Below are positions 31,651-63,503 of a DNA stretch of 64,000 nt, one piece after another. The notes under the pieces are model-generated. The model did not search any database. It was not told the origin of the DNA and saw only the letters and a list, made by a program, of their open reading frames with translations. The position numbers and the translations under genes are program-made. Source of the stretch: Kineosporia sp. NBRC 101731 (lineage in GTDB: Bacteria; Actinomycetota; Actinomycetes; Actinomycetales; Kineosporiaceae); NCBI RefSeq assembly GCF_030269305.1, contig NZ_BSTC01000008.1:1-64000 (forward strand), written 5' to 3'. Numbering within the stretch: position 1 is the stretch's first letter; the number at the start of each line of letters is the position of its first letter.

Positions 31651-31694
31651 CGTGATCATGCAAAGGTTCCCCGTGGAACCTTTGCATGATCACG
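31651..31694. repeat. Dispersed palindromic element, copy 1 (possible terminator)
   Basis: CGTGATCATGCAAAGGTTCC is followed by CCGT and its exact reverse complement, a perfect 20-bp stem. It lies between acs and the VOC gene. The outer CGTGATCATGCAAA recurs as the arms of three other intergenic structures in this window (50949, 55535, 63433). Confidence 0.85.
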
Positions 31695-50120: not shown

Positions 50121-50258
50121 TCACGAATTCACGCGCCGTGCTGCAACGCTGCTCCATCGGTTGACGTCGGGGTGTTGGTGCTGGTCAAAGGGCTGCTAGG
50201 TTCGCGCGACCCTGACCACCAGCACCATCCCTTGACACTGAGATCATGGAGAAACCGC

Positions 50259-50894
50259 GTGTCGATTCAGGAAGCCGTGAGAACGGTTCTGACCCAGAAG
50301 TACGCCACCTTCGCAGGCCGGGCCCGGCGGTCGGAGTACTGGTGGTGGTACCTCGCCTACACGATCGGCTTCATCGCGGCCCTGATCGTCGCCGGAATTC
50401 TCTACGCGATCCTTCCGGAAAGCGCCGGCAATGCGCTGTTCGGCCTGATCTACCTGGCGATGATCTTCGGTTTCATCATCCCGAACCTGGCGGTGACCGT
50501 CCGGCGCCTGCACGACACCGGCCGTTCCGGCTGGTGGTTCCTGATCTCGGCCGTCCCGTTCATCGGTCCTCTGGTAATGCTGGTCTTCACGGTGCTCGAC
50601 AGCCAGCCCGGTGCCAACCAGTACGGCCCCAACCCGAAGGGCGTCGACGGGGGCTTCGGCGGGCAGGGCTACGGGCAGCAGGGGCACAACCAGCAGGGCT
50701 ACGGCCAGCCGCAGTACGACCAGCAGGGGCCGGGGCAGCAGTACGGGCAGCAGGGTTACGGCCAGCAGCCCGGTTACGGCCAGCAGCCCGGTTACGGCCA
50801 GCAGCCCGGCTACGGCCAGCAGCCCGGCTACGGCCAGCAGCCCGGCTACGGCCAGCAGAACCCCTCGGATCAGCAGGGCTACGGCCAGGGCTGA
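50259..50894 (+). CDS. DUF805 membrane protein with GYGQQP repeat tail
   Basis: The 211-residue protein begins [29 protein letters not shown], the DUF805 start, followed by about four membrane helices and the [18 protein letters not shown] motif. After NQYGPNPKG the last 70 residues are Gly/Tyr/Gln-rich with perfect GYGQQP repeats and are probably disordered. DUF805 has no known activity. GTG 50259 is chosen by family start and GGAG upstream. A paralogue lies 350 bp downstream. A TTGACA box is at 50231. Confidence 0.87.
50754..50861 (+). repeat. 18-bp tandem repeat encoding GYGQQP
   Basis: Six consecutive 18-bp units of the form GGYTACGGCCAGCAGCCC (the last diverging at its final codons) run without interruption. 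The first three carry GGT and the next carry GGC at the first codon, otherwise they are identical. Slippage could change copy number in frame. Confidence 0.92.
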
Positions 50895-50948: not shown

Positions 50949-51031
50949 CGTGATCATGCAAAATGTCCCCGGAGTTCTAGAACTGTCAATGGCGGTGTTC
51001 TAGAACGCTGGGGACACTTTGCATGATCACG
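50949..51031. repeat. Dispersed palindromic element, copy 2 (composite, 83 bp)
   Basis: The arms start with CGTGATCATGCAAA and continue TGTCCCC, then a TTCTAGAAC block. The two arms match over about 35 bp with four or so differences, around a 12-nt centre (near TCAATGGCGG). Each arm contains its own TTCTAGAA palindrome. The outer 14 bp are identical to those of the element at 31651. It lies between the two DUF805 genes. Confidence 0.85.
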
Positions 51032-51076
51032 ATGAAGGTGGGGGGCGCCGCCGGCCGCGTCCCCCAACGCCGACAC

Positions 51077-51120
51077 ACCGAGGCGCCGCTCTCCTCCTGG
51101 AGAACGGCGCCTCGGTTTTT
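51077..51120 (+). terminator. Rho-independent terminator with T tract
   Basis: ACCGAGGCGCCG pairs with CGGCGCCTCGGT, with an inner small stem TCTCC/GGAGA, followed by TTTTT at 51116-51120. It is the only hairpin in the window with a classical T tract on the plus strand. It ends transcription from the first DUF805 gene. Confidence 0.88.
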
Positions 51121-55534: not shown

Positions 55535-55566
55535 CGTGATCAGGCAATATCTCCCCGGTGATCAAG
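55535..55566. repeat. Dispersed palindromic element, copy 4 (short/partial)
   Basis: CGTGATCAGGCAAT begins 17 bp after the oxygenase stop and is followed by CTCCCC and GGTGATCA, a decayed second arm. The left arm has G in place of T in GATCATGC, the same variant as one arm of the copy at 63433. Confidence 0.6.
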
Positions 55567-62236: not shown

Positions 62237-63441
62237 GAGGCCAGCTCCCGCAGCACGGTGGTCAGTGCCTCGACCCCTGCGACACAGTCGGCCTCCTGCG
62301 CGAACTCCGCCGGGGAGTGCGAGATCCCGGTCGGGTTGCGGACGAACAGCATGCCGGTGCTGACGCCCGCCGTGGCCAGGATGCCGGCGTCGTGCCCGGC
62401 GCCGGTGCCCAGCAGGGGCGCACCGCCCAGGATCTGGCTCAGGCGGTCGGCCAGTGACGTATCGAAAGCCGTGTTGCCCGTCCATGATTCCTCGGTGACC
62501 GTCGCCCCGAGGTCCCGGGCCGCGGCGGTGAGGTCACGCAGCACGCCCTGCACGCTGCTCTCCGAAGGGGCCCGGGCATCGAGCCAGGCCCGCACCAGCG
62601 AGGGAATGGCGTTCACACCGTTGGGCTCGACCAGCAGCTTGCCGAAGGTCGCGACGGCATCGTGGGCCCCCGCGAACTCCCGGGCCGCCAGCACGGTCGA
62701 GGCGTAGCCGAGCATCGGGTCGTGCCGATCGGCCAGCCGTGTCGTACCGGCGTGGTTGGCCTCGCCCGCGAAGTCGAAACGCCAGCGCCCGTGCGGCCAG
62801 ATCGCCGTACCCACACCGATGGGCGCGTCCCCGTACTCCGGCGTGGCCAGCGCCCGGCCCTGCTCCACATGCAGTTCGACGAAGGTGCCGATGCGTTGCA
62901 GCGTCTCGTCGTCGCGGCCCAGATGCCGGGGGTCCTGACCGGCGCTGCGCATGGCCTCGGGGATCGAGGTTCCGTCGGCATCGCGCAGACCCGCGGCCCG
63001 GTCGGCCGACATCGCCCCGGTGATCAGCCGCGAACCGGCGCAGGCCACCCCGAACCGGGCGCCCTCCTCGTCCACAAAATTGACCACTCCCAGCGGTTTT
63101 CCGGGAGTGAATCCCTCGTCCTTCAGAGCTTCCACCGCCGCCAGGGCGCTGACCACGCCGAGCGGTCCGTCGAAGGCGCCACCGTCCGGCACCGAGTCCA
63201 GGTGGCTGCCGGTGACGATGCCTGGCGTCGCATCCGGGTCTCCCCACCACGCCCACTGGTTCCCGGCCCGGTCCACGGTGAGATCCAGCCCGAGCGCCGC
63301 GGTCTCGCCGGCGAACCACTCGCGCAGCAGAGCATCCTCGGCCGTCCAGGCAAACCGCCGGTACCCACCGGAAGCAGCCCGCCCGACAGGTTCGATCTCG
63401 GCCCAGCGCCTGGCGAAACCCCCACCTTCTGCCGTGATCAT
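62233..63441 (-). CDS. M20 amidohydrolase (allantoate amidohydrolase family), probable hut step
   Basis: The 402-residue zinc peptidase-like amidohydrolase has GSHLDSVPDGGAFDGPLGV (His and Asp ligands), DEEGARFGVACAGS (Glu ligands) and FVELHVEQGRAL. It belongs with allantoate amidohydrolase and N-carbamoyl amino acid hydrolase. Between hutU and hutF in actinobacteria it probably supplies the last hut reaction, release of formate from N-formylglutamate. ATG 63441 is chosen by the family start; it lies inside one arm of the palindromic element. No Shine-Dalgarno is visible there. Confidence 0.85.
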   Translation of the reverse strand: MITAEGGGFARRWAEIEPVGRAASGGYRRFAWTAEDALLREWFAGETAALGLDLTVDRAGNQWAWWGDPDATPGIVTGSHLDSVPDGGAFDGPLGVVSALAAVEALKDEGFTPGKPLGVVNFVDEEGARFGVACAGSRLITGAMSADRAAGLRDADGTSIPEAMRSAGQDPRHLGRDDETLQRIGTFVELHVEQGRALATPEYGDAPIGVGTAIWPHGRWRFDFAGEANHAGTTRLADRHDPMLGYASTVLAAREFAGAHDAVATFGKLLVEPNGVNAIPSLVRAWLDARAPSESSVQGVLRDLTAAARDLGATVTEESWTGNTAFDTSLADRLSQILGGAPLLGTGAGHDAGILATAGVSTGMLFVRNPTGISHSPAEFAQEADCVAGVEALTTVLRELAS

Positions 63442-63503
63442 GCGATCCCCCAGCCCTCGGCCGGGAGATGCCCCCACCCCCGGCGAAAGTTTGCCTGATC
63501 ACG
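63433..63503. repeat. Dispersed palindromic element, copy 3, overlapping a start codon
   Basis: On the plus strand the arms are CGTGATCATGC and GCCTGATCACG, with AAACTTT-type and C/G-rich blocks between (71 bp). On the minus strand the arm GCATGATCACG provides the ATG of the M20 amidohydrolase gene at 63441. The element sits in the 100-bp hutU-amidohydrolase gap. Confidence 0.75.

Follow-up and report, generated by a model that had tools for sequence, protein, structure and literature searches.

In REPINs, the closest described counterparts of the elements reported here, two short inverted units together fold into a hairpin, and inverted REPs stand on either side of RAYT genes (PMC3116915, PMC2817692). 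AbiEi proteins bind inverted repeats of 23 bp in pairs, and they do so in the promoters of their own genes (PMC7319586). We have characterized a family of palindromes in the actinomycete Kineosporia sp. NBRC 101731 that almost certainly belongs together with a gene encoding an AbiEi-nuclease. Our preferred reading, to which we give a probability of about 0.6, is that the palindromes are REPIN-like miniature non-autonomous elements spread by this hydrolytic nuclease.

The window, that is, the whole 64,000-nucleotide stretch of contig NZ_BSTC01000008.1 that was analyzed, contains four palindromes (Table 1). All four are as the initial annotation had described them, the copy at 55535 being a remnant and the one at 63433 weaker than the others. 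When folded as single-stranded DNA and compared with shuffled sequence, the 31651 hairpin reaches a z of -12.4 and the 50949 copy, with arms of about 35 bp, a z of -12.2 (-33.8 kcal/mol), while the 63433 copy, which has two and one mismatches in its ends, folds more weakly (z -2.4) and the remnant no better than shuffled sequence (z -0.1). The remnant also stands at the matching place in Kineosporia mesophila. The 31651 copy has a stop codon 5 bp upstream and is followed by the next gene in the same direction. With up to three mismatches, the end motif matches the window 14 times versus 2.33 expected, a number reached in none of 100 shuffles; seven of these matches are the four copies, and the other seven lie elsewhere at two to three mismatches. 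The frame upstream of the 50949 copy (50172-50894) ends in tandem repeats encoding YGQQPG-like units.

Table 1. Palindrome copies in the window, the neighboring hairpin, and the gene-bearing copy (G000, Kineosporia sp. NBRC 101731)
Feature	Coordinates	Strand	Basis or remark
44-bp palindrome copy, perfect 20-bp stem	31651..31694	.	Read in sequence, folded
83-bp palindrome copy, main size class	50949..51031	.	Read in sequence, folded
Terminator-like hairpin with T-run, separate from palindrome	51074..51120	+	Read by eye
Decayed palindrome copy	55535..55566	.	One end left, with 2 mismatches
71-bp palindrome copy, diverged ends, GC-rich segment inside	63433..63503	.	Read in sequence, folded
Gene-bearing copy, 1,184 bp between ends	G000:C1:1543645-1544828 = L036:3646-4829		End-motif pair; outside window
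Enclosed gene, 319 codons	L036:3792-4748, stop to 4751		Single gene in element

The whole-genome search revealed a large family. The exact end motif CGTGATCATGCAAA is found 290 times in G000, a genome of 8,264,356 bases (141 forward hits, 149 reverse), in which the same pattern read backwards never occurs, and 258 times (130 and 128) in K. mesophila JCM 16902 (G002), but it is absent from the four other Kineosporia genomes searched (G001 and G003-G005). Exact carriers thus amount to 2 of 58 genomes, both among the six of the genus, and terminators conserved in position across genera, which according to the initial annotation would have spoken against its reading, were not what we found, the exact motif occurring in 0 of 52 genomes outside the genus. 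With up to three mismatches allowed per end, we read 44 paired copies in 644 kb of G000, which include the window and many stretches picked for exact ends, and 32 in 580 kb of G002; the stretches in both species were selected partly for exact ends, and the pattern search lists the first 100 places of each genome.

Typical copies are hairpins of 44-112 bp with near-invariant ends, partly co-varying stems, and variable centers, with sizes of 83 bp (25 copies), 44 bp (12), and 112 bp (9) the commonest. The 83-bp copies have a consensus in which a variable center is bordered on each side by a GTTCTAGAAC box, with an outer arm of about 24 bases beyond the first box and the other arm beyond the second. 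In the 25 copies of this class the arms are mostly near-invariant and about nine central positions are not, which agrees with the shared ends and differing centers first noticed in the window. In the 112-bp copies that were inspected, one arm is longer by a GC-rich segment of 29 bp (for example, L039:9548-9659). This segment has 97% matches over about 31 bases at G004:C1:1411045-1411076 and G003:C15:84203-84233, and since these two congeners have no palindrome family, it has the appearance of an independent repeat that lies within the element.

Alignment of 72 distinct copies of at least 44 bp reveals how the stem varies. The outer 11 positions are paired and near-invariant, while two-sided changes that preserve the pair are found in 21, 11, and 14 copies at positions 15, 16, and 17, respectively, versus means of 5.5, 3.3, and 3.0 and maxima of 11, 7, and 7 in 300 shuffles; these figures count copies, which are not independent events. 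Positions 12-14 show a smaller excess (3, 7, and 3 versus 0.4, 1.5, and 0.5), and positions 18-22 show none over the shuffles. These patterns suggest recognition of the ends through their sequence and of part of the stem through its pairing. The complementarity of the outer flanks of copies is no better than that of swapped partners. A known RNA family was rejected, the seven Rfam matches at E values up to 1 being all far below gathering scores and mostly to microRNA families. One or another of four end-sequence strings was found in 16 open-licence papers, none of them, judged by title, on actinobacterial repeats.

As for genomic position, determined with our own simple gene finder for 76 copies of G000 and K. 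mesophila, 38 copies lie between tandem genes, 28 between convergent and 2 between divergent genes, and 5 at stretch edges, while spacer DNA on offer comes to 111,570 bp (tandem), 33,752 bp (convergent), and 56,332 bp (divergent). The remaining three are inside genes, and the claim that copies are outside genes or at their edges therefore holds for most of them only. The nearest gene 3' end is at a median of 17 bp and the nearest 5' end at a median of 142 bp, a position behind stop codons that may represent tolerance rather than targeting. The outer 15 bases of the 76 copies are strand-skewed, with a G content of 0.11 on the left and a C content of 0.11 on the right compared with 0.35 each in the window, possibly a preference for certain targets. 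None of the 76 copies is flanked by exact direct repeats of 4-10 bp; a 3-bp repeat flanks one copy, and a 2-bp repeat none. The longest match in the 25-bp flanks does not exceed that of swapped pairs; a target duplication could nevertheless lie further out or vary in place.

The idea of a terminator family, also raised early on, lost ground. A TTTT run within 15 bases, read outward on either side, accompanies 13 of the 76 copies (a count without a control set), and because a separate terminator-like hairpin with a T-run stands behind the 50949 palindrome, this palindrome is shown not to be the terminator of that gene. A similar hairpin, read by eye, is present without the palindrome in G005. 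Both the few T-runs and the separate hairpin disfavor a terminator model. A broader version would have the AbiEi-like protein act as an autoregulator, with the repeats as its binding sites and as 3'-end hairpins with a cellular role (termination, RNA stability, or chromosome organization), spreading slowly by ordinary recombination. While this would accord with the binding of AbiEi proteins to inverted repeats in their own promoters (PMC7319586), with the closeness of copies to gene ends and their scarcity between divergent genes, and with the co-varying stem positions, we consider it improbable: the repeats stand on both sides of the gene and thus beyond the promoter, T-runs are few, the palindrome family is missing from four congeners, and the protein has conserved nuclease residues (see below).

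Comparison of the two repeat-bearing species uncovers differences in occupancy. For ten G000 sites a counterpart was identified within the fetched part of G002, and at three of these the element is missing there (L150:13415, L157:782, and L159:1592); of seven G002 sites matched in G000, one (L167:14645) keeps only a one-end remnant in G000. These absences cover the element plus some flank, and from the sequences at hand gain and loss would look the same. The 50949 copy is common to both species. At this site G005 has a similar upstream gene, and its spacer up to the downstream gene contains the terminator-like hairpin and no palindrome; G004 likewise lacks the palindrome, G001 has a different upstream gene, and no such site was found in G003.

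One copy, outside the window, encloses a gene. In K. mesophila a gene-bearing element stands at the same site with 92% identity, inverted relative to its neighbors. The 29-bp segment is present in both arms of the G000 copy and in neither arm of the K. mesophila copy, so both arms have changed in concert. In G004 the flanks of the site meet, with 16 bases between them and no palindrome. G000 has one strong match to the AbiEi-nuclease protein only, and DNA and PF18741 searches of the six genomes of the genus found the gene in G000 and G002 alone. PF18741 gave 23 matches in the six genomes, most of them in frames of more than 1,400 residues; of seven such loci run by tblastn, only the two gene-bearing ones gave a good match, and the others were set aside. 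A second AbiEi-like gene of G000, at L057 (G000:C9:271558-272124), is not a family member, as it matches at 32% over residues 24-203 only; judged by eye, the adjoining DNA resembles a toxin partner, and this is possibly an ordinary AbiE pair. The frames neighboring the enclosed gene at L036 resemble, again by eye, an adenosyltransferase and a mutase, metabolic genes rather than an AbiEii toxin.

The enclosed gene encodes a two-part protein. Pfam assigns AbiEi_4 to residues 22-58 and, below cut-off, MTES_1575 to residues 238-286 as well as AbiEi_1; it finds no other domain, and so no transposase, and NCBIfam gives no match. In 36 aligned relatives, Pfam matches MTES_1575 33 times, AbiEi_4 26, DUF559 20, and AbiEi_1 14 times; where we saw the gene annotated, it was only as a DUF559 protein. 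MTES_1575 is listed as a Vsr-type restriction endonuclease in PMC3710099. The residues invariant in all 36 relatives include E254, D256, E258, E259, and H261, nuclease residues that a pure regulator would not need. An AlphaFold2 model (mean pLDDT 92.1, pTM 0.88) was compared with the PDB using Foldseek, which ranked the AbiEi antitoxin 6y8q (E 2e-7) and Rv2827c (1zel, E 3e-5) on top, then mitoribosome proteins (E 0.011-0.08, rmsd above 16), and after those, weakly, the catalytic domain of the homing endonuclease I-Bth0305I (3r3p, E 0.099, probability 0.97). PADLOC matched the protein with AbiEi models only. According to Pfam, Foldseek, and PADLOC, the AbiEi fold covers residues about 22-198, the N-terminal two thirds. 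The gene probably encodes a DNA-cutting protein in which an AbiEi-type winged-helix DNA-binding region is fused to a Vsr-fold (MTES_1575/DUF559) nuclease. The binding of AbiEi proteins to pairs of repeats of about 23 bp would be in keeping with recognition of units of about 20 bp by this protein.

The proposal that the palindromes are REP- or MITE-like and mobilized in trans was right in direction, since the family is high in copy number, restricted to a clade, variably present between sister species, and has one gene-bearing copy. Its RAYT component did not survive: Pfam Y1_Tnp (PF01797) has no match in either repeat-bearing genome (G000 and G002), which leaves a RAYT model unsupported in both, and in the genus it matches one of six genomes, G005, itself without the repeats.

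Relatives of the gene across Actinomycetes usually stand between inverted short repeats of their own. We used 49 of 56 relatives in named genomes, omitting seven that are partial matches or near contig ends (L086, L098, L101, L104, L105, L111, and L113), and scored whether a stretch of 20 or more bases from the 350 bp upstream is found again, inverted, in the 350 bp downstream. This flank test was passed by 39 of the 49, versus 146 of 1,287 shifted placements. An alignment search of 296 Actinomycetes genomes yielded 200 matches at E 1e-20, in 91 of 115 genera; for 30 loci from this search, a set that includes the query locus and some loci resembling those of the first set, 25 of 29 usable ones pass, versus 168 of 812 swapped partners, a control raised because some loci share repeats. 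Of 20 lower-scoring, hand-picked loci, 15 pass, versus 35 of 380 swapped partners. About a fifth of relatives fail (10 of 49, 4 of 29, and 5 of 20), some of them where the match stops short of the gene start. The association is directly observed. The flanks often contain units of about 20 bp in opposite orientation on the two sides, which are of TGATCATG type in a number of the closest relatives (L059, L060, L062, L068, and L069), of GTTGAGTTG type in several Nocardioides, and of other types elsewhere; one near relative, L061, has another repeat. In L068 and L069, from Streptomyces sp. NP160, the frame is broken by a stop over the matched range in both relatives, and the flanking repeats look intact.

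Repeat type follows the protein. A usable repeat was obtained from 72 of 83 loci, and among the 66 non-redundant ones, pairs sharing an 8-mer amount to 25/61 at 50-80% protein identity, 22/94 at 45-50%, 47/242 at 40-45%, 30/571 at 35-40%, 28/855 at 30-35%, and 20/322 below 30%. Repeat sharing correlates with protein identity (Mantel r 0.269), with none of 5,000 permutations as high. This co-divergence partly reflects common descent, and by itself it falls short of proving recognition. That the palindromes are moved by some other machinery and that the gene was merely captured between two of them is very unlikely, because chance capture does not predict the same arrangement with unrelated repeats in many genera, even if the gene is single in its genome, no target duplication is seen, Y1 transposases are the only ones that were searched for (and not found), and copies with other cargo could exist beyond the first 100 end motifs listed.

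The repeats of relatives also occur without the gene. Three genomes in which the gene is accompanied by TGATCATG repeats contain GTGATCATG 173, 194, and 272 times, and Cellulomonas phragmiteti, where the gene has a different repeat, contains it 34 times; the motif read backwards gives 0-1 matches, a less fair control since it contains CTAG, which is rare in such genomes. We fetched 20 stretches from five other genomes, selected for closely spaced listed units: 18 have no tblastn match to the Kineosporia protein, the only protein with which absence of the gene was judged, and 16 of these 18 contain compact inverted units without gene. At L198 and L201, inverted units about 0.9-1.6 kb apart flank genes other than the nuclease, possibly as two neighboring elements or with passenger genes. 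In a 400-kb piece of G127, the count of GTTGAGTTG-like units was uninformative (48 versus 30-199 for shuffled motifs); by spacing, there are five clusters, one of which has both strands within 130 bp, a compact inverted cluster without the gene. Phage or plasmid cargo was rejected, matches to the gene family numbering 0 among 50,697 phage records and 5 among 72,556 plasmid records.

A single site in the genus of G127 was found in many states. We searched the gene-bearing site in 118 genomes (taking the genus as Nocardioides), 117 of which match, and read the best 30 matching loci, which are selected by score so that counts are not frequencies. The gene is present in thirteen of these best 30 (two at 25-27% identity only), accompanied by repeats of several families, and L307 has it in inverted orientation. 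A gene-free palindrome stands in L292, its repeat being of a type that accompanies genes at this site; L283 and L305 have other palindromes, and the remaining loci have no such repeat. The gene-free long palindrome of L283 (GGTTGAGGTGC ... GCACCTCAACC) lies directly behind the left gene and likewise has its start at the stop codon of the host gene, so this place may serve further repeat families as well. The host gene ends in CGT-TGA at the repeat start in 9 of 13 gene-bearing loci and in 0 of 17 others. The overall pattern is compatible with recurrent insertion or replacement, or with an ancient presence followed by loss.

It is here that the chief rival to spread by the nuclease must be weighed, namely that a homing-endonuclease-like gene parasitizes an older palindrome family, cutting gene-free palindromes so that break repair copies the gene in and homogenizes the palindromes, while something else spreads them. 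In its favor, one site has gene-bearing and gene-free states, and the gene sits in the middle of a palindrome with arms like those of gene-free copies and has a catalytic part weakly like that of Vsr-fold I-Bth0305I. We nevertheless find this unlikely: gene and repeats share a narrow distribution in Kineosporia and co-diverge across Actinomycetes, so that the repeats look gene-dependent, and G004, the sole comparable species lacking the gene at the gene-bearing site, has no palindrome there at all.

Under the preferred reading, the AbiEi-nuclease would bind the outer ends of an inverted pair, and the paired stem would allow the element to fold out as a hairpin or cruciform. A hydrolytic cut at the ends would then initiate excision or the copying of the element to another location, usually one directly behind a stop codon, and repair that uses the opposite arm as template would preserve the match between the arms. 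Binding, cutting, and cutting as the cause of spread are what we infer, and they are favored by a series of observations: the ends abound in two sister species and are absent from four congeners, with the gene in the same two; the gene is enclosed by the palindrome family's own ends; relatives in many genera are linked to inverted repeats, and repeat sharing tracks protein identity; gene-free copies, sites empty in one sister species, a many-state site, and paired changes at positions 15-17 all exist; and the protein combines an AbiEi fold with a weak match to a Vsr-fold homing endonuclease in two species devoid of Y1 transposase matches. Against it, no mobilization event was seen, and the absences could be losses; target duplications of at least 4 bp are missing from all 76 copies; the gene-bearing copy is single and in the same place in both species, and so shows no recent spread of its own; Y1 transposases are the only alternative machinery excluded; positions 18-22 have no paired excess; a fifth of relatives fail the flank test; and location behind stop codons may be tolerance.

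If this reading is true, many palindromic repeats of Actinomycetes gain an owner, and a very common gene at that; miniature repeats are spread by a restriction-type hydrolytic nuclease rather than a transposase; and a readable code between protein and repeat becomes accessible, with many natural pairs to test. We would give even odds to the wider proposition that this is a new class of mobile DNA in Actinomycetes, in which an AbiEi-nuclease recognizes its own repeats, spreads gene-free hairpins to gene 3' ends, at one site even providing the stop codon of the host gene, and co-diversifies with them, as a solution reached independently of, and similar to, REPIN-RAYT. No description of DUF559/AbiEi genes flanked by repeats was found in the open-licence literature, which does not prove that none exists.

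How does the system compare with those already known? Intrinsic terminators consist of a hairpin and then a T-run, whereas here TTTT is found at the 13 of 76 copies mentioned above, counted without a control set. Type IV toxin-antitoxin AbiEi antitoxins share the N-terminal two thirds of the protein (AbiEi_4, PADLOC AbiEi, PDB 6y8q and 1zel) but not its C-terminal nuclease, and the Kineosporia neighbors look, by eye, metabolic instead of like an AbiEii toxin. Vsr-fold (EDxHD) homing endonucleases such as I-Bth0305I show the weak catalytic-domain match and, according to PMC3943268, are likewise self-favoring nuclease genes with separate DNA-binding parts; in contrast to these, the gene here lies between inverted repeats behind genes, was not seen in an intron or intein, coexists with hundreds of gene-free repeats, and has no phage match. 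As with insertion sequences and their derived MITEs, short gene-free copies share their ends with one longer, one-gene copy, but there is no 4-10 bp target-site duplication (76 copies) and no transposase domain, and the copies are palindromic nearly throughout. The system shows neither the enzyme of RAYT-REPIN nor the duplication and transposase of IS and MITEs, and its protein is no plain AbiEi antitoxin, while it would work like REPIN-RAYT. With the latter, as described in PMC3116915 and PMC2817692, it shares short inverted hairpin doublets with compensatory changes, many copies outside genes, a single gene between two inverted repeats, and an enzyme and repeat that co-diverge, and it differs in relying on an AbiEi region with a Vsr-fold hydrolytic nuclease where REPIN-RAYT has a Y1/HUH (IS200/IS605-like) transposase.
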